Shown: positions 14,797 through 31,774 of the stretch, piece after piece
Layout: every line of letters begins with the position of its first letter
How positions within the stretch are numbered: the first letter of the stretch is position 1
Source: Bacteroidota bacterium
GTDB taxonomy: Bacteria > Bacteroidota > Ignavibacteria > Ignavibacteriales > Melioribacteraceae
DNA: 64,000 bases
Direction of reading: 5' to 3'
Assembly (NCBI GenBank): GCA_021824635.1
Contig: JAKAKD010000039.1
Location: 1 to 64,000, forward strand
Program-made: the position numbers and the translations under genes
The notes under the pieces: model-generated
Told to the model about the DNA's origin: nothing
What the model saw: only the letters and a program-made list of their open reading frames with translations
Database searches by the model: none

Positions 14797-15885
14797 TTAT
14801 TCTTCTGCTTTAGCTTTCCCTTTTTCAGTAGATCTATTAAGTTCTTTTATTTCGGAAGGGCTTGTTGGGTGCCCGATGCTGTTTAAATGTTTATGGATAA
14901 ACAAATATTCTTCTTTGGAAACTTTATTGTGCCAATGTCCCGTCAGCATTCCTATTCCGGTTATCGCAATAAAAATTAAAACCACTCCGGCTGCAATTAT
15001 TTTTTTTGAGACTTTCTTCTGCCCAAATATATTTTTGACTTCAAGAGTATCCGCAACCGGACAAGCATCCACACAATTCAAACAAGAAGTGCATTCGTCA
15101 GAACGAACAGTAACAATCTTATCAACTTTTATGAATGAAGGACACGCTTTTGCGCACAATCCGCAATCTATACAACTCGCAGCGTTTCTTTTGATTTTGT
15201 TCGGGCTTAAAAATCCAATCAATCCAAGTAATGCACCGTAAGGACATAAATATCTGCACCAGAAATTTCGAATAACAACAGAAAGCAGAAATAAAACGCC
15301 AATAACAATTAGACTGAAACGGGAGATCTCCGCAAAGAAGTAAAACATTTTTATATCAGCGGCAATATTGTAGGCGTCACTCAAAAAAAACGCAAGCGCG
15401 GTTTCCGTCATGGAAAATATTGCGAATGCAAAAAATGCCAGCAGCAAATATTTTATTGCCCGTAGTGGATAATCAATAAATCTCGGAAGTCTAATTCTAT
15501 GTTTAAATAGTTTTTTCCAGATCTTGTCGCCAAAGTCTCCCACCATTTCAGAAATAAAACCAACCGGACACATCCAGCTGCAGAATGCTTTTCCAAATAC
15601 TAAAGAGACGCCAACAATGGCAAGAAAAATAAAAAATCCTGCGGGATGAACATTGTGTATTTGTCCGGTCTGAATAAAATAAACCACGCTCATCAATGCA
15701 CTTATCGGAAGAAATCCTTCTGCGCCCGGCGGTCTCTGATGAAATTCTCCCAATCCATTCGATTCCAAATATGAAATAAATTGTGAGAACTCAATTCCAA
15801 TCCAGATGCAGAGAATTACAAATGCAATCTGAACGGCAAATCTAATTTTTTGAATCGGCTTTTCTATATTTTTTATGTACTTCAT
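14797..15885 (-). CDS. NapH-like membrane 4Fe-4S protein
   Basis: Membrane-bound iron-sulfur protein of 362 aa related to NapH/MauN and the C-terminal part of NosR. Several transmembrane helices fill residues 15-320; cytoplasmic CxxxCP motifs occur in FCSWMCPVG and CRYLCPYG. Two [4Fe-4S] ferredoxin motifs follow, CIDCGLCAKACP and CTSCLNCVDACP (about 235-280), and a last helix is near 292-312. Such proteins pass electrons from quinol or assist maturation of periplasmic reductases. The gene diverges from the soluble ferredoxin gene at 15999 and lies beside the nitrite reductase cluster, so electron supply or copper-site activation for that cluster is a reasonable inference. No nap or nos genes are present. 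Confidence 0.82.
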   Translation of the reverse strand: MKYIKNIEKPIQKIRFAVQIAFVILCIWIGIEFSQFISYLESNGLGEFHQRPPGAEGFLPISALMSVVYFIQTGQIHNVHPAGFFIFLAIVGVSLVFGKAFCSWMCPVGFISEMVGDFGDKIWKKLFKHRIRLPRFIDYPLRAIKYLLLAFFAFAIFSMTETALAFFLSDAYNIAADIKMFYFFAEISRFSLIVIGVLFLLSVVIRNFWCRYLCPYGALLGLIGFLSPNKIKRNAASCIDCGLCAKACPSFIKVDKIVTVRSDECTSCLNCVDACPVADTLEVKNIFGQKKVSKKIIAAGVVLIFIAITGIGMLTGHWHNKVSKEEYLFIHKHLNSIGHPTSPSEIKELNRSTEKGKAKAEE

Positions 15886-15998
15886 ACCATTACACTTTCT
15901 TTTAACTTATTTCCCTTCACTACTTCTTTTTGAAACAAACGGAAAAGTTTCTATATTAATATCAGAAAAAAAACTCTGTTTATCAAATCGGAATTTAT

Positions 15999-16841
15999 AT
16001 GCTTCGTAAAATCATAAAAATAGATGAAGAAAAATGCGATGGCTGCGGAAATTGTGTCCCCGAATGTCGTGAAGGTGCGCTACAAATAATAGATGGTAAA
16101 GCTCGATTGATCAGCGATCTTTTTTGTGACGGGCTCGGTGCTTGTCTTGGAAACTGTCCGCCCGGTGCATTAACAGTTGAGGAACGTGAAGCTGAACCTT
16201 ATGATGAAATGAAAGTTATGAAATACATTACCGCCGGCGGTGTAAATGTTATTAAAGCTCATCTTGAACATTTGCGTGATCATCGAGAATTTGAATACTT
16301 AACGCTCGCTCTTGAATATTTACGTGACAGTGGAATTGAAAACCCTCTTTCGGCTAAAGAACTTGAAGAAAAAACATCTCATTGTGGTTGCTCTGGTTCT
16401 CAAGAGATGAATATTGAAAACATTGACGATAATGAAGATTTGAAAGATTCCCGTGTTTCTCATTTGATGCAGTGGCCAATACAGTTTCATCTTGTTTCGC
16501 CGCAAGCTGCATATTATAGAAATTCCGATTTCTTACTTGCAGCAGACTGCTGCGGTTTTGTTTATCCGGATTTTCACAAAGTTTTTTTAAAAGGAAAATC
16601 GCTCGCAATTGCATGTCCAAAATTAGATTCCAACAAACAAATCTATCTTGAAAAGTTGGTAACGATGATCAACGAATCAAATTTAAAATCTATCACAGTT
16701 TTGATAATGCAAGTGCCATGTTGCGGCGGTCTTGTGCACTTGGTTCAACAAGCAATTGATATTTCAAAAAGCAACATACAAGTTATGGTTACGGTCTTGA
16801 GTAATACCGGAAAAATTTTACAAACCTCCCGTTTAAATTGA
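15999..16841 (+). CDS. ferredoxin-like protein with two N-terminal 4Fe-4S motifs
   Basis: Soluble protein of 280 aa. Residues about 10-62 hold two cluster motifs, CDGCGNCVPECREGAL and the altered CDGLGACLGNCPPGAL. The second lacks the regular CxxCxxC spacing, having CDGLGACLGNCP. Further Cys occur in the middle (HCGC near 126-129) and C-terminal half (ADCCG, ACPKLD, PCCGG), which may bind another metal or a cluster. This arrangement is known in anaerobes as a 4Fe-4S protein of unknown exact role, often near nitrogen oxide genes. The ATG directly follows GGAATTTAT. It diverges from the NapH-like gene over 113 bp and precedes nirK by 256 bp, so redox service to the cluster is inferred. Confidence 0.78.
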   Translation: MLRKIIKIDEEKCDGCGNCVPECREGALQIIDGKARLISDLFCDGLGACLGNCPPGALTVEEREAEPYDEMKVMKYITAGGVNVIKAHLEHLRDHREFEYLTLALEYLRDSGIENPLSAKELEEKTSHCGCSGSQEMNIENIDDNEDLKDSRVSHLMQWPIQFHLVSPQAAYYRNSDFLLAADCCGFVYPDFHKVFLKGKSLAIACPKLDSNKQIYLEKLVTMINESNLKSITVLIMQVPCCGGLVHLVQQAIDISKSNIQVMVTVLSNTGKILQTSRLN

Positions 16842-16912
16842 TCAGTGAATTATTAGTTTCAAAATAATTTCGCCCCAGATTTTACCCTTTTATTCGGCAT
16901 AAGCATATTAAA

Positions 16913-16959
16913 TCGGACAAAGAGGACACGTTAAAAATTTAACTTGACCGATTGTCCGA
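16913..16959. promoter_or_regulatory. nested concentric inverted repeat upstream of nirK
   Basis: TCGGACAA at 16913-16920 is the exact reverse complement of TTGTCCGA at 16952-16959. Between them GTTAAAAATTTAAC (16930-16943) is itself an inverted repeat, and both have their centres at about 16936. No T run follows, so it is a poorer fit to a terminator than to an operator or structured leader. The role is unknown. Confidence 0.4.
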
Positions 16960-17002
16960 GATTAACTAAGTTGTAATCGGAATTAAAATTCTTTTATTGG
17001 GC

Positions 17003-17027
17003 AATGGATTTGAACATCAAATCCATT
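17003..17027. promoter_or_regulatory. perfect 25-bp palindrome upstream of nirK, probable operator
   Basis: AATGGATTTGA (17003-17013), spacer ACA, TCAAATCCATT (17017-17027): eleven-base arms without a mismatch. It lies 71 bp before the nirK ATG and about 24 bp upstream of a TATAAT at 17052, the place for an activator or repressor site. The inner TTGA-N3-TCAA differs from an Fnr box (TTGAT-N4-ATCAA), so another dimeric regulator is likely. Confidence 0.55.
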
Positions 17028-17051
17028 AGACGGAAAAATATTTTTTTGTAA

Positions 17052-17057
17052 TATAAT
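17052..17057 (+). promoter_or_regulatory. candidate -10 element for nirK
   Basis: TATAAT at 17052-17057 lies 40 bp before the nirK ATG, just downstream of the palindrome. No good -35 is seen, which agrees with an activator-dependent promoter. AT-rich sequence makes chance matches frequent. Confidence 0.35.
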
Positions 17058-17097
17058 AAGACAAGATGTTCTCTTTCTTTTATAAAAGGATTAAGTA

Positions 17098-18624
17098 ATG
17101 AAATCAAAAATTATAATACTCGGAATAATTTTAATAGTTGTTCTTTCCGCTCTAATAATAAGTTGCGGTGGCGAATCATCCGATCAAATAATCGGAGAAG
17201 AACATGCGCAATTAACACAAGCACCGTACGTCCCTCATGCAATAACAAGAAAACATCCGACTAAAGTTATTATTGACTTAGAAGTGCGAGAAGTTATTAA
17301 GCAGCTTTCCGATGGAGTTGAATATGTTTTTTGGACTTTCGGCGGCGACGTACCGGGAAGTTTTATTCGTGTTCGCGAGGGAGATTTAATTGAATTTCAT
17401 CTTCACAATCATCCGCTCAATAAACTTCCTCACAATATTGATCTGCACGCGGTAACGGGACCCGGAGGCGGCGCAACATCTTCTTTTACAGCCCCGGGAC
17501 ACACTTCAATTTTTTCATTCACAGTAAAAAATCCGGGACTATTTGTTTACCATTGCGCTACAGCTCCGGTTGGAATGCACATTGCAAACGGAATGTACGG
17601 TTTAATATTAGTTGAACAGAAGGAAGGATTGCCCCCCGTTGACCGTGAATATTATGTAATGCAAAGCGAATTTTATACAGAAGGAAATTACGGCGATGCC
17701 GGTCTGCAGTCGTTCAGCATGCAAAAGGCATTAACCGAAACACCGGATTATGTCGTATTCAACGGTTCGGTTGGTTCGATGGTAGGCGATAAATCATTGA
17801 AAGCAAATGTCGGTGAAAGAGTTAGACTTTATATTGGAAACGGCGGACCGAATTTGGTTTCATCATTCCATGTTATTGGAGAAATTTTTGATTTGGTTTA
17901 CAGTGAAGGAGGAAATATTGCGGTTCAGAAAAATGTTCAGACAACATTGATTCCTTCCGGAGGATCATCAATTGTAGAATTCAAAGTTAATGTACCTGGA
18001 AATTTTATAATGGTTGATCATTCAATCTTCCGGGCATTCAATAAAGGCGCTCTTGGAATGCTGACTGTTAGCGGAGCCGAAGATAAAACTATTTATTCAG
18101 GTAAACAGAAAGATGAACTTTATTCAGGCTCTATTTCTACTACCGGCGGTGTTAACCCTTTTACCGGCGAGCTAAATAAGGAAAACGGAAAAGAAGGTTA
18201 TGTTTCAAAATACTCAACGGGTGACAGCAAGGTTGATGAAAATCTTTTAAAGACAGCAATGGCAGAAGGGTCTAAGGCCTCTTCTCCAACAGAAATGTTA
18301 AATATGGGTCAAAGCGTTTACAATCAAAGCTGTGTTGCGTGCCATCAAGCAGACGGAAAAGGAATTGCGAATGTATTTCCGCCACTTGCAAATTCTGATT
18401 GGCTTAAAACACATTCAAAAGAAGAAGCGATTAAAAATGTTATTGCCGGAAGAACGGGTGAATTGACGGTCAACAACAAAACATACAACGGTATTATGCC
18501 TCCACAAAATCTTAGCGATCTTCAGTCGGCTGCCGTATTAACTTACGTTTATAAGAAATTTGCAGGCAAAGATGTTTCCGTCTCTGCCGAAGATGTAAAA
18601 AAAGTTAGAGCGGGAAAGAAATAG
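17098..18624 (+). CDS. nirK: copper nitrite reductase NirK fused to cytochrome c
   Basis: Periplasmic, lipid-anchored NO-forming nitrite reductase, 508 aa. The lipobox LIISC places the lipidated Cys at 23. The two cupredoxin domains keep all copper ligands: type 1 H112, C153, H161, M166; type 2 H117, H152, H308; active-site D115 and H258. A linker (about 330-395) joins a C-terminal class I cytochrome c with heme motif CVACH (412-416) and axial-Met candidate M468 in GIMPP. The built-in cytochrome should deliver electrons to the type 1 copper, as in known NirK-cytochrome fusions. ATAAAAGGATTAAGTA precedes the ATG. It heads a probable operon with the FGE-like, SCO, Ric and NO reductase genes. 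Confidence 0.95.
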   Translation: MKSKIIILGIILIVVLSALIISCGGESSDQIIGEEHAQLTQAPYVPHAITRKHPTKVIIDLEVREVIKQLSDGVEYVFWTFGGDVPGSFIRVREGDLIEFHLHNHPLNKLPHNIDLHAVTGPGGGATSSFTAPGHTSIFSFTVKNPGLFVYHCATAPVGMHIANGMYGLILVEQKEGLPPVDREYYVMQSEFYTEGNYGDAGLQSFSMQKALTETPDYVVFNGSVGSMVGDKSLKANVGERVRLYIGNGGPNLVSSFHVIGEIFDLVYSEGGNIAVQKNVQTTLIPSGGSSIVEFKVNVPGNFIMVDHSIFRAFNKGALGMLTVSGAEDKTIYSGKQKDELYSGSISTTGGVNPFTGELNKENGKEGYVSKYSTGDSKVDENLLKTAMAEGSKASSPTEMLNMGQSVYNQSCVACHQADGKGIANVFPPLANSDWLKTHSKEEAIKNVIAGRTGELTVNNKTYNGIMPPQNLSDLQSAAVLTYVYKKFAGKDVSVSAEDVKKVRAGKK

Positions 18625-18647: not shown

Positions 18648-19463
18648 ATGAGAAAAACAACGAAAAATATTTTATTCTTTTTAATGTTTAGTATTAACGC
18701 CTTGCTTGCACAAAGCGATAAAATTAATCCGGCAAATAATATGATGTTGATTAGCGGCGGCGTTTATACTCCCTTGTACGGTGAAAAGAATAATGACTTA
18801 AAAATAAAAGTAGCGCCATTCTTCATTGATAAATACGCGGTAACAAACTCACAGTTTTTAAAATTTGTAAAAGAAAATCCCAAATGGAAAAGATCAAACG
18901 CAAAAAAACTTTTCGCAGATGAAAACTATTTAAGCAATTGGAAAAGCGATTTGGAATTAGGAAAAAATGTTCTGCCGAACGGACCTGTGACGAATATTTC
19001 ATGGTTTGCGGCAAAAGCTTATTGCGAGTATTACAAAAAAAGATTGCCGTCAGTGGCGGAATGGGAATTAGTAGCAAAAGCAAGCTCAAATCAACCGGAC
19101 GGATCTAAAGATCAGAAATATATTAAACAAATACTTGAATGGTACTCGCGGCCGATAACGGAAAAGATTTCTCCGGTAGGTTCAAGAGGGAAAAATTATT
19201 GGGGTGTCTACGATATGCACGGGCTGATTTGGGAATGGACATCTGATTTCTTTAGTTCACTTGTAACAGGAGAATCCCGAGGTGACAGCGGATTGGAAAG
19301 AAATCTTTTTTGCGGAAGCGGTTCTGTGAATGCATCCGATTTCAAAAATTACCCGGCATTTATGCGCTCTGCATTCAGAAGCAGTTTGAAAGCAAATTAC
19401 ACAACGAGCAATCTCGGCTTTCGTTGTGTGAAAGATTACAAAGAAGAAAGGAAAACAAAATGA
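18648..19463 (+). CDS. FGE-sulfatase-domain protein lacking the catalytic Cys pair
   Basis: Exported protein of 271 aa with a signal peptide ending near LLAQ and a formylglycine-generating-enzyme fold: MMLISGGVYTP at the start, FFIDKYAVTNSQFLKFV, VTNISWFAAKAYCEYYKKRLPSVAEWE, and GVYDMHGLIWEWTSDFF. Genuine FGE needs a Cys pair in an LCxxxYC-type segment; the matching region here reads SVNASDFKNYPAFMRSAF with no Cys, so sulfatase activation is unlikely. A lone C lies in LFCGSG. Members of this fold beside nirK are, as I recall, found in other Bacteroidota, so a part in nitrite reductase assembly or electron transfer is possible. Its TGA overlaps the SCO ATG (ATGA at 19460-19463). Confidence 0.8.
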   Translation: MRKTTKNILFFLMFSINALLAQSDKINPANNMMLISGGVYTPLYGEKNNDLKIKVAPFFIDKYAVTNSQFLKFVKENPKWKRSNAKKLFADENYLSNWKSDLELGKNVLPNGPVTNISWFAAKAYCEYYKKRLPSVAEWELVAKASSNQPDGSKDQKYIKQILEWYSRPITEKISPVGSRGKNYWGVYDMHGLIWEWTSDFFSSLVTGESRGDSGLERNLFCGSGSVNASDFKNYPAFMRSAFRSSLKANYTTSNLGFRCVKDYKEERKTK

Positions 19464-24702: not shown

Positions 24703-25131
24703 TTACAATGAAGCTATTTTGCTTGTGGTCTTCTCTCTTAAATTTTCTAAGGTTTCTTCACTTAACATATTATAAGCTTCCTCGCGCAACTTTCCCCATT
24801 GATGGTGCACCGGGCAGGGTGTTTCGTGAGAACATCCGGGAAAACCGAGAACGCATGATCTGAAAACATCCAATCCGTCTATAGCTTCAACAATATCAAT
24901 TAACTTTATTACGCTTGGTTCTTTTGCCAAAAAGAAACCGCCATTTTTTCCTTTTTTGGATCCCACTATTCCGCTGCTAGTTAGAATTTGTAATACTTTT
25001 GATACAAATTCCTTTGGAACTTTTAATTCCGTAGAAATCTCTTCGGCATTATAGATTTTTTTTTCTTTAGTGGACAAAAACAGTACGGCTTGAAGACCCA
25101 GCTCGCATGCTTTTGAGAAAAATACTGTCAT
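24703..25131 (-). CDS. Rrf2 family regulator with three cysteines
   Basis: Transcription regulator of the Rrf2 family, 142 aa. An N-terminal winged helix (about 1-70) has SKACELGLQAVLFLS and the recognition part ISTELKVPKEFVSKVLQIL, and the wing KKGKNGGFFLAK. C93, C100 and C106 (CVLGFPGCSHETPC) match in place the cluster ligands of IscR/NsrR, with C-x6-C-x5-C spacing instead of the IscR C-x5-C-x5-C. Thus it may bind an Fe-S cluster and sense NO, oxygen or cluster status; closeness to the NO reductase genes makes an NsrR-like role possible but unproved. Two palindromes lie in its upstream region. Confidence 0.88.
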   Translation of the reverse strand: MTVFFSKACELGLQAVLFLSTKEKKIYNAEEISTELKVPKEFVSKVLQILTSSGIVGSKKGKNGGFFLAKEPSVIKLIDIVEAIDGLDVFRSCVLGFPGCSHETPCPVHHQWGKLREEAYNMLSEETLENLREKTTSKIASL

Positions 25132-25319: not shown

Positions 25320-25697
25320 ATGAAAAAGTTAGTTGCATTAGTAGTATTAGTTGCTTTTACATCAGTAGCTTTTGCTCAAGCTCAACCACAAAAGAAAGCT
25401 GAAGCAACAAAAGCCGCTGTAGAAAAGAAAGTTGCTGAAAAGAAAGTTGAAGCAGCTAAACCAGTTGCTGAGAAGAAAGTTAAAGCAGCAAAGAAAGTTG
25501 CAGCTGAAAAAGTAGAAGCTGCAAAACCAGTTGCCGAGAAGAAAGTTAAAGCGGCAAAGAAAGTTGCTGAAAAGAAAGTTGAAGCGGCTGAGAAGAAAGC
25601 TGAAATGAAAAAAGAAGCAGCTGAAAAGAAAGTAGAAGCAGCAAAGAAAGTTGCAGAAAAGAAAGCTGAAGCTGCTAAACCAGCGGTAAAAAAATAA
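25320..25697 (+). CDS. secreted Ala/Lys-rich hendecad-repeat protein (LEA-like)
   Basis: Protein of 125 aa with a clear signal peptide cut near AFAQA (about residue 19-21). The mature part is almost only A, K, E and V arranged in 11-residue units of the type VAEKKVEAAKP / VAEKKVKAAKK, repeated about eight times. Such hendecads form long amphipathic or right-handed coiled helices and recall group 3 LEA proteins and histone H1-like tails. The DNA copies differ by synonymous changes (for example GCAGCTAAA versus GCTGCAAAA), so the protein repeat is kept by selection, not by recent duplication. GGAGTACCAA before the ATG is a strong RBS, and a strong terminator follows, pointing to high expression. 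Function unknown; a periplasmic spacer or stress protein is possible. Confidence 0.85.
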   Translation: MKKLVALVVLVAFTSVAFAQAQPQKKAEATKAAVEKKVAEKKVEAAKPVAEKKVKAAKKVAAEKVEAAKPVAEKKVKAAKKVAEKKVEAAEKKAEMKKEAAEKKVEAAKKVAEKKAEAAKPAVKK

Positions 25698-25714: not shown

Positions 25715-25747
25715 AAAAAAGGAGAGTTATTACAACTCTCCTTTTTT
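25715..25747. terminator. strong bidirectional terminator
   Basis: AAAAAAGGAGAGTT (25715-25728), loop ATTAC, AACTCTCCTTTTTT (25734-25747): a 14-bp perfect stem with T run on both strands. It ends the hendecad gene and can also end the convergent malic enzyme gene. Confidence 0.9.
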
Positions 25748-29667: not shown

Positions 29668-30336
29668 ATGAGAATATTATTAGTAGAAGACGAGAAGAAA
29701 GTTGCCTCTTTTATAAAAAAAGGTTTGGAAGAGGAACTATACGAAGTGGACACTGCCGCCAACGGGAAAGAGGGTCTTGAACTTGGACTTACAGACGAGT
29801 ACGATTTGATTGTCTCCGATATTATGATGCCTCTTATGAATGGCTTACAGCTTACAAAAGAATTACGAAAGAATAAAATTACCACTCCTATACTTTTGCT
29901 AACAGTAAAAGACGGAACAAAAGATAAAGTTGAAGGGCTTGACAGCGGCGCCGATGATTATTTATCAAAACCTTTTGCCTTTGAAGAACTAACGGCAAGA
30001 GTGCGTGCTTTACTTAGAAGAAAAGAAACCCAAAAAGACAATTTGTTAAATGCAGATGATTTGGCAATAGACCTTGTGGCTCACAAAGTAACCAGAGCGG
30101 ATAAAGAAATTATACTTACACCTAAAGAATATTCTATTCTGGAATATCTCTTAAGAAACAAAAACAAGATTATAACACGGACAAAACTGATAGAACACGT
30201 TTATGATTTTCATTTCGACAGCGGCACAAATGTAATTGATGTTTATATTAACAAGCTTCGGATAAAAATAGACCACGGTTTCGATAAACAATTGATTCAC
30301 ACTGTGCGGGGCGTGGGCTATATAATTAAAGAATAG
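29668..30336 (+). CDS. OmpR/PhoB family response regulator
   Basis: Two-domain transcription regulator, 222 aa. The receiver (about 1-115) has the acid pocket ED at 7-8, phosphoacceptor D51 and K near 102 in LSKPFAFEE. The C-terminal winged-helix DNA-binding domain (about 127-222) shows LTPKEYSILEYLLRNKN and the end VRGVGYIIKE. The next gene, 13 bp on, is the histidine kinase, so they form one two-component system. It diverges from cstA over 122 bp. Confidence 0.95.
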   Translation: MRILLVEDEKKVASFIKKGLEEELYEVDTAANGKEGLELGLTDEYDLIVSDIMMPLMNGLQLTKELRKNKITTPILLLTVKDGTKDKVEGLDSGADDYLSKPFAFEELTARVRALLRRKETQKDNLLNADDLAIDLVAHKVTRADKEIILTPKEYSILEYLLRNKNKIITRTKLIEHVYDFHFDSGTNVIDVYINKLRIKIDHGFDKQLIHTVRGVGYIIKE

Positions 30337-30349
30337 CTTCGACTAAATT

Positions 30350-31774
30350 ATGCTTACAAAAATTAAATTGTTTTTCACTTCAACACGATTCAAAATTACA
30401 ATTTGGTATTCCTCGCTCTTCTTTTTAATGGAATTTTTACTCGGTTTAGTAATTTATTTTTACATTTATAACATTTCTCATATGAACCTGGATTCAAGTC
30501 TTAAAGCGCAAGCAAATTCTATTCTAAGGGTAATTGAAGAAAAACATATTGATTTGGACTCCTTTCAGCCAAGCACCGTGTACAAATCTGAAGACGAATT
30601 AATTTGGGATATTGCTTACGATGTAATTGTATTCAACCGCAGAAACACATTCATAGAAGTTACGACATCAAATAAAGTAATTTTTAAAACCGCTAATCTT
30701 GGTAAGGTTAGTCTGTCATTTCCCGAAAAGAAGGGAAAGTCTGCGTTGTTCGATTACAAAAACGAAGAACTCTCCGGAAGCGCAATTAGAGTCTGTCAGT
30801 TAAAAGGGAAAAAATATGTTGTAATAGTTGCATACTCTAAAGAATATATCTCGCAGACACTTAACAACCTAAAGGATGTTTATATTTTCATCGCTCCAAT
30901 CTTTTTTCTAATATCAATTATCGGCGGCGCACTTATCTCCTCAAAATCTCTTTCCCGCATTGATGCTATTATCAAAAAAACGGAAGAGATCACCGGACAA
31001 AATTTGGAAGAAACCATTCCGGGCGGCGAATATTTTGATGAGTACGGGCGGTTGGTAAAAAAAATGAATGAAATGGTTAGCAGAATTAAAACGTCTGTAG
31101 ATTTTATGAACCAGTTCTCTATTTCTGCCGCACATGAATTAAAAACTCCATTAACAATTTTGCGCGGTGAAATTGAAATTACACTTAAATCCGAAAAAAC
31201 TCCGCAGCAATACATTGAAGTTTTAAAAAGCAATTATGAAGAAACCATTAGAATGATCAAGATTGTTGATAATCTTTTCTTCATTTCGAAGAGCGATAAT
31301 GCAATGATCAACATTAACTATCATGAGATCGAGTTAAATTCATTCTTAAATTCTATAGTAAAGAGCTTGGGAATTTTAGGCCAAGAAAAAAACATGTCCT
31401 TGGTCTTAGAGAAGGCCCCAAATTTAATTATTCAAATAGACGTCAATTTAATGAAACAAGCGTTATCAAATATTATTGATAATGCTTTCAAGTTCGGTGA
31501 TGAAAATACAAACGTAACTATTTCCGCAAAAGATCTTGGCGAGAAAATTAAAATTAGTGTTTCAAATATGGGAGAAAAAATTCCCGCTGAAGAAGTTGAA
31601 AAAATATTTGATCGGTTTTACCGCGCAGATAAATCGCGCACAAGAAAAACGGGAGGGGTCGGGTTGGGACTGTCTGTCGTTAAATCAATCGTAAGCCTGC
31701 ACAAAGGAACAGTAGAAGTTCAATCAAACGACAATTCATTAACTACACTAAGCATTTTCATCCCCAAGATTTAG
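30350..31774 (+). CDS. membrane sensor histidine kinase paired with OmpR-type regulator
   Basis: Inner-membrane kinase of 474 aa: TM1 about 17-40, periplasmic domain about 41-175, TM2 about 177-197, HAMP about 198-250, HisKA with H262 in SAAHELKTPLTI, and a HATPase domain ending near 470 (GLGLSVVKSIVSLH). The architecture is that of the EnvZ/CusS type kinases. The partner is the regulator just upstream. The signal is unknown; the divergent transporter gene cstA suggests carbon supply as one option. Confidence 0.94.
   Translation: MLTKIKLFFTSTRFKITIWYSSLFFLMEFLLGLVIYFYIYNISHMNLDSSLKAQANSILRVIEEKHIDLDSFQPSTVYKSEDELIWDIAYDVIVFNRRNTFIEVTTSNKVIFKTANLGKVSLSFPEKKGKSALFDYKNEELSGSAIRVCQLKGKKYVVIVAYSKEYISQTLNNLKDVYIFIAPIFFLISIIGGALISSKSLSRIDAIIKKTEEITGQNLEETIPGGEYFDEYGRLVKKMNEMVSRIKTSVDFMNQFSISAAHELKTPLTILRGEIEITLKSEKTPQQYIEVLKSNYEETIRMIKIVDNLFFISKSDNAMININYHEIELNSFLNSIVKSLGILGQEKNMSLVLEKAPNLIIQIDVNLMKQALSNIIDNAFKFGDENTNVTISAKDLGEKIKISVSNMGEKIPAEEVEKIFDRFYRADKSRTRKTGGVGLGLSVVKSIVSLHKGTVEVQSNDNSLTTLSIFIPKI

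Follow-up and report, generated by a model that had tools for sequence, protein, structure and literature searches.

The window (the whole stretch of DNA analysed, 64,000 nucleotides) contains a nirK gene for a copper nitrite reductase, which is preceded on the same strand by a ferredoxin-domain gene, P0003, and further upstream by a divergently oriented NapH-like polyferredoxin gene (Table 1). The named records nearest to it by NirK come from Ignavibacteria and from unclassified Bacteroidetes bins, which points to Ignavibacteria as the probable order. A gene with an FGE-sulfatase domain (18648-19463), the product of which presumably resembles NirV, lies directly 3' of nirK, as it does in all 17 nirK loci of relatives that were fetched. 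Also beside the cluster, at 29668-31774, a response regulator gene is accompanied by another long ORF, which we take to encode its kinase. This pair is a second candidate regulator next to the Rrf2 family protein P0002 and recurs in loci L085, L086, and L087 (genomes G003, G005, and G006).

Table 1. Features at and around nirK in the window, with the basis of each assignment.
Feature	Position	Strand	Basis or remark
NapH-like polyferredoxin gene, proposed target	14797..15885	-	Fer4_5; TIGR02163 87.7 bits, below cut-off 213
Top-scoring Rrf2-type site in the window, flanked by the divergent NapH-like and ferredoxin genes	15959..15982	+	19.1 bits
Ferredoxin-domain gene P0003, proposed target	15999..16841	+	Pfam Fer4
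Box 1, resembling a half-site, 64 bp upstream of box 2	16911..16928	+	AATCGGACAAAGAGGACA; resembles box 2
Predicted nirK promoter, TTGACC-17-TAAGTT	16944..16972	+	sequence; geometry shared with some other upstream regions
Box 2, a degenerate box of the Rrf2 type after the -10	16974..16997	+	conserved in the genus; 12.2 bits
Reported 11-3-11 palindrome	17003..17027	.	probably in the nirK leader, at roughly bases 24-48 from the predicted start
Box 3, before the ribosome-binding site, holding TATAAT	17052..17076	+	genus conservation; conserved core AATAAGAC-N6-TTCT
nirK, copper nitrite reductase with C-terminal cytochrome c domain	17098..18624	+	TIGR02376 344.9 bits, cut-off 296.3; Cytochrom_C 404-484
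Rrf2 family regulator P0002, proposed box binder	24703..25131	-	Pfam Rrf2 E 3.6e-28

Copy number and conservation of the palindrome

An earlier note on this DNA had drawn attention to a perfect palindrome in front of nirK. It indeed reads AATGGATTTGA-ACA-TCAAATCCATT with 11/11 perfect pairs, and the TATAAT at 17052-17057 follows, as described, after a gap of 24 bases. The note had also called the palindrome very unlikely by chance, which is true of the 256-bp intergenic stretch by itself: a perfect palindrome with arms of at least 11 and a loop of 3-8 bases occurred in 0.24% of 20,000 stretches of 256 bp simulated with the composition of this intergenic region. It does not hold for the window, for which 40 simulations of 64 kb give an expectation of 0.43 such palindromes and in which 2 were observed; since the whole window had been read, the statistical weight of the palindrome is modest. 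The 17 related loci (329,830 bases) contain 10 palindromes of this kind, several of them ending in A-rich and T-rich sequence as terminators do. A terminator-like 14-5-14 hairpin with A-rich and T-rich ends also lies in the window at 25715-25747, behind 25320-25697, and has close counterparts in L083, L085, and L086. The full palindrome 17003-17027 is present once in the 3.06-Mb genome. Its 21-bp core pattern has 9 other matches, all with 3 mismatches and none with 2 or fewer, and it was on this ground rejected as a copy of a repeat family.

A search at E 1e-60 or better recovered nirK from 28 of 146 genomes, the own genome included, 7 of which belong to the genus of the window. For 26 of these 28 the upstream regions were compared in coding-strand orientation, the two left out being L016, in which the gene lies at the contig end, and L029, which is fragmentary. 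An alignment was made of six genus members, and the seventh, G009, was inspected by eye. Among the seven, the palindrome is perfect in one, retains 7/11 pairs in the nearest relative, G001, and is missing in five, including G009; in G010 the alignment has a gap where it would be. For G001, G010, G003, G005, and G006, respectively, the alignment shows 19, 0, 8, 9, and 5 of the 25 palindrome positions and 7, 0, 0, 1, and 0 of the 11 pairs to be kept, whereas 23, 16, 21, 19, and 19 of the 24 positions of box 2 and 24, 19, 19, 19, and 21 of the 25 positions of box 3 are kept. The flanking blocks are thus conserved within the genus and the palindrome, which sits in the most variable stretch of the nirK upstream region, is not. 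This is the outcome that the earlier note had itself named as speaking against its reading, and it teaches that an eye-catching palindrome near a promoter can be the least conserved part of the promoter region. Beyond these genomes, 79 of 80 named nirK loci were scanned up to 330 bp upstream; none has the palindrome, 7 have some perfect inverted repeat (arms of at least 9, loop 3-8), and 2 (L118 and L119, the former probably the same record as L008) have a box. A search of viral_contigs found no relative.

The nearest relative deserves separate attention. G001 keeps the core GGATTTG-N5-CAAATCC of the palindrome with 17/19 bases identical and its flanks less well (left 2/6, right 13/17); four pairs are broken and none of these is compensated. 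The exact core is present in 5/146 genomes, before nirK only in the own species and in G001. Because the core is better kept than its flanks, some constraint on it in these two species is possible.

The nirK promoter region and the readings of the palindrome

The predicted nirK promoter, which a generic promoter scan did not list, is followed after one base by box 2, TAATCGGA-N8-TCTTTTAT, which reads AATCGGA-N8-TC. The same geometry, i.e., TTGAC-17-TAnnnT with a box within 0-2 bases, is found in 6/12 Rrf2 and, counting the own one, 9/26 nirK upstream regions; a tenth nirK region (G040) has a spacer of 19 instead of 17 bases, and 16/26 do not have the geometry. The box 1 stretch (16910-16935) is identical in G001 (26/26). 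The distance from box 1 to box 2 (16911 to 16975) is 64 bp in G000, G001, G010, G003, and G005 and 55 bp in G006 and G055, i.e., about six and five helical turns, a spacing that may point to the involvement of two dimers or a loop. From the predicted promoter we infer that nirK transcription probably starts near 16979; if the prediction is right, this places the palindrome in the nirK leader.

A leader position would fit a hairpin with a function in the RNA of this species, in its stability or translation, and with a fast-evolving sequence. The palindrome hairpin alone has -10.8 kcal/mol and the own leader a z of -2.45, and the nirK leader of G020 (L090), with a z of -4.25, has strong hairpins too, one of 10-5-10 and another around ACCGCA, which are unrelated in sequence. 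However, we consider such a function unlikely, as no unusual folding was seen in the other 8 of the 10 leaders tested, that of G001 included (z -0.67). With unusual folding in just 2/10 leaders the palindrome was rejected as a conserved leader structure. It was also rejected as an Rfam RNA, there being no match in 16500-17700 up to E 1, and as the start of a leader ORF (ATG at 17004), an ATG that G001 does not have. Although the hairpin lies between two genes of one orientation, the ferredoxin gene and nirK, it is extremely improbable as a terminator or attenuator: the stem has no T-run directly behind it and a scan of 16800-17120 for intrinsic terminators gave 0 sites. The earlier note itself had suggested the site of an undescribed nitrogen-oxide regulator; such an operator might be private to the species and its sister. 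The perfect symmetry of the palindrome, improbable in 256 bp, speaks for this, as does the core kept in G001 and found intact at nirK in these two species only. Nevertheless, an operator at this position is very improbable in view of its absence before nirK in 5/7 genus members, the uncompensated pairs in G001, and the lack of a second genome site within 2 mismatches of the core. On the sequences compared, the palindrome is a curiosity, real, yet not behaving like a nirK operator.

The Rrf2 gene and its proposed box among relatives

P0002 passes the cut-offs of the Rrf2 family (PF02082, 98.8 bits against 30; TIGR00738, 103.5 against 73.3), and the solved structures closest to it in sequence are Rrf2 family proteins (6y45, E 5e-7). 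It has three cysteines, potential Fe-S ligands judged by sequence, which are invariant in 13/13 orthologues. Orthologues were detected in 123/146 genomes at E 1e-40, far more than nirK, so that the Rrf2 orthologue, if active, must have other targets as well.

Of the 17 fetched nirK loci, 12 hold an orthologue of P0002, and in 8 of these a site like AATCAGA-N8-TCTGATT is located at or just before the Rrf2 start codon. A regulator box at its own gene is the usual mark of self-regulation. The 4 loci in which the box is lacking at the Rrf2 gene are all of the genus of the window, where self-regulation through the box seems to have been lost. A first motif matrix was set aside because it had been built from the nirK-region boxes, which made its scores there circular; the scores given here are those of an independent motif built from the 8 Rrf2-gene sites, all from outside the genus of the window. 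This motif ranks 15959-15982 first in the window, above the peaks of 20 simulated windows (9.5-17.7 bits). The score of box 2 ties for third and fourth rank, a level at which chance alone would give 1.6 hits in 64 kb, and neither box 2 alone nor box 3 (7.4 bits) rises above chance by this motif; the palindrome, at 2.7 bits, was rejected as part of an Rrf2 box. In the fetched clusters of G001, G010, G003, G005, G006, and G055 the top motif score falls on the divergent intergenic site and/or box 2. The 15959-15982 site is present in 6/6 genus genomes searched. For the shorter pattern TATCRGA-N8-TCYG, counts in six genus genomes range from 2 to 7, and all six have a copy upstream of the NapH-like gene of the cluster. 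The variant TAATCRGA-N7-TTCTKT, with 17 hits in the own genome against 10 for a backward control, was too weak to be of use.

The exact sequence AATCRGA-N8-TCYGATT occurs in 77/146 genomes (backward control: 3) and in 0/12 genomes of the window's genus. The 75 sites listed come from 41 genomes, 37 of them with an Rrf2 orthologue; 23 of these 37 each have one listed site that ends 0-15 bp before the orthologue. From the sites listed, 20 further stretches were hand-picked, from 12 genomes of one sister family. Of the 21 sites in them, 3 fall within reading frames; the other 18 are intergenic and all lie beside nitrogen-oxide, ferredoxin, NapH-like, DUF438, or Rrf2 genes. Six sites in five stretches belong to a cytochrome c gene followed by nosZ (identified with TIGR04246 in three stretches and by similarity in the other two), one to a cytochrome c gene with narG next in line (671 bits with TIGR01580 for a cut fragment), and two to nrfHA (both models above cut-off). 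Four are at ferredoxin genes resembling 15999-16841 (one checked in Pfam) and three at genes for DUF438-hemerythrin-PAS proteins (one checked), and there is one site each at a NapH-like gene and at an Rrf2 gene of G094, a genome without a P0002 match at 1e-40. Where the neighbouring genes diverge, as at some of these sites, the opposite neighbour could be the target.

Proposed control of the cluster and described regulators

We consider it probable (about 0.7) that the palindrome is an inverted repeat confined to one lineage, without a shared regulatory role and probably situated in the nirK 5' leader, and that the cluster is most likely controlled through the flanking boxes, to which the Rrf2 protein would bind. 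As a family, Rrf2 proteins work as dimers at palindromic sites, and in IscR and NsrR three cysteines hold an Fe-S cluster. The protein encoded at 24703-25131 would bind the palindromic AATCRGA-N8-TCYGATT, of which the copies in the window are degenerate. Because box 2 begins right behind the -10, a dimer bound there would exclude RNA polymerase, i.e., the protein would act as a repressor. By analogy with NsrR, NO may attack the cysteine-held Fe-S cluster, upon which the protein would be released and nirK and its partners would be switched on. NO or nitrite would in this way relieve repression of nirK and its helpers and, outside the genus, in most relatives examined, also of the Rrf2 gene. We lean, somewhat less firmly, towards a wider proposal: the Rrf2 orthologue group may regulate itself and be a hitherto undescribed master regulator of nitrogen-oxide respiration throughout the order, one protein acting via the box behind the -10 on the genes for nitrate, nitrite, ammonifying nitrite, and nitrous-oxide reductases. 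The idea of an undescribed nitrogen-oxide regulator gains support, since the box-bearing Rrf2 genes are orthologues of 24703-25131, the gene named in the earlier note and now a supported candidate; the site, however, is moved from the palindrome to other boxes (15959-15982 and 16974-16997).

The boxes may also be real operators of another regulator than the Rrf2 protein, e.g., the two-component pair 29668-31774. Their assignment to Rrf2 is based on position alone, the Rrf2 gene of the window's genus has no box, and the pair is again found next to the cluster in G003, G005, and G006. We regard this as distinctly unlikely, given that 23 of the 75 sites listed end directly before an Rrf2 orthologue.

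The nearest described regulator to the system of boxes and Rrf2 protein proposed here is, as far as we can judge, NsrR. Its targets in beta-proteobacteria include nirK and norB (PMC1274295). P0002 resembles it in its Rrf2 domain and three cysteines, and the boxes resemble its sites in being palindromic, operator-like, and located at promoters, but the consensus differs, gATGyAT-N5-ATrCATc for NsrR (PMC1274295) and AATCRGA-N8-TCYGATT here, and the proposed targets in relatives include nosZ, nrfHA, and narG. The NsrR operator finds at best 8/14 positions in 16842-17097, also over the palindrome, and P0002 scores 36.5 with the NCBIfam NsrR model (cut-off 182). The palindrome has an NsrR-like half, ATGGAT, but with 11 bases between the halves instead of 5. 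Likewise, it holds TTGA..TCAA as do the DNR, HcpR, and FNR boxes, but with 3 instead of 6 bases in between; its best matches are 6/12 for DNR, 7/14 for HcpR, and 6/10 for FNR, and it contains no TTGATnnnnATCAA-like FNR/DNR box. The earlier note, which had seen no fit to the Fnr, NnrR, or NsrR consensus, was thus right as far as the four patterns tested here go, those of NsrR, DNR, and HcpR being from PMC1274295.

A second system for comparison is Mros1101 of Melioribacter roseus, a BadM/Rrf2 gene near nrfHA and nosZ that has been suggested to control the nos operon (PMC3534657). It can be likened to P0002 by its family and nitrogen-oxide gene setting, although the portion of that account available to us gives no operator and no wider target set (PMC3534657). 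In the open-access literature, as far as its accessible text goes, no operator or link to nirK was found for the Rrf2 group of 24703-25131. The type of regulator is known, and what we propose as new is the box AATCRGA-N8-TCYGATT together with a protein for nitrogen-oxide genes. For the usual CRP/FNR candidates, PMC8510549 reports no evidence of denitrification control in the Ignavibacteria and related genomes it studied. A defined candidate operator and a named protein make the question of control directly testable. Relatives in the order carry nirK, nrfHA, and Sec-type nosZ, and how these genes are controlled is therefore relevant to the production or removal of nitrous oxide; in 10 genomes of the genus no nosZ was found at E 1e-80, in a search run without positive control. 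In two loci of unrelated lineages, L143 and L176, nirK is preceded by perfect palindromes, AATTGGATGTTTGCATCCAATT and AATAAAGGATGTTTTTGTCCTTTATT, with a GGA-N8-TCC spacing equal to that of the box, which perhaps represent a wider Rrf2 operator type.
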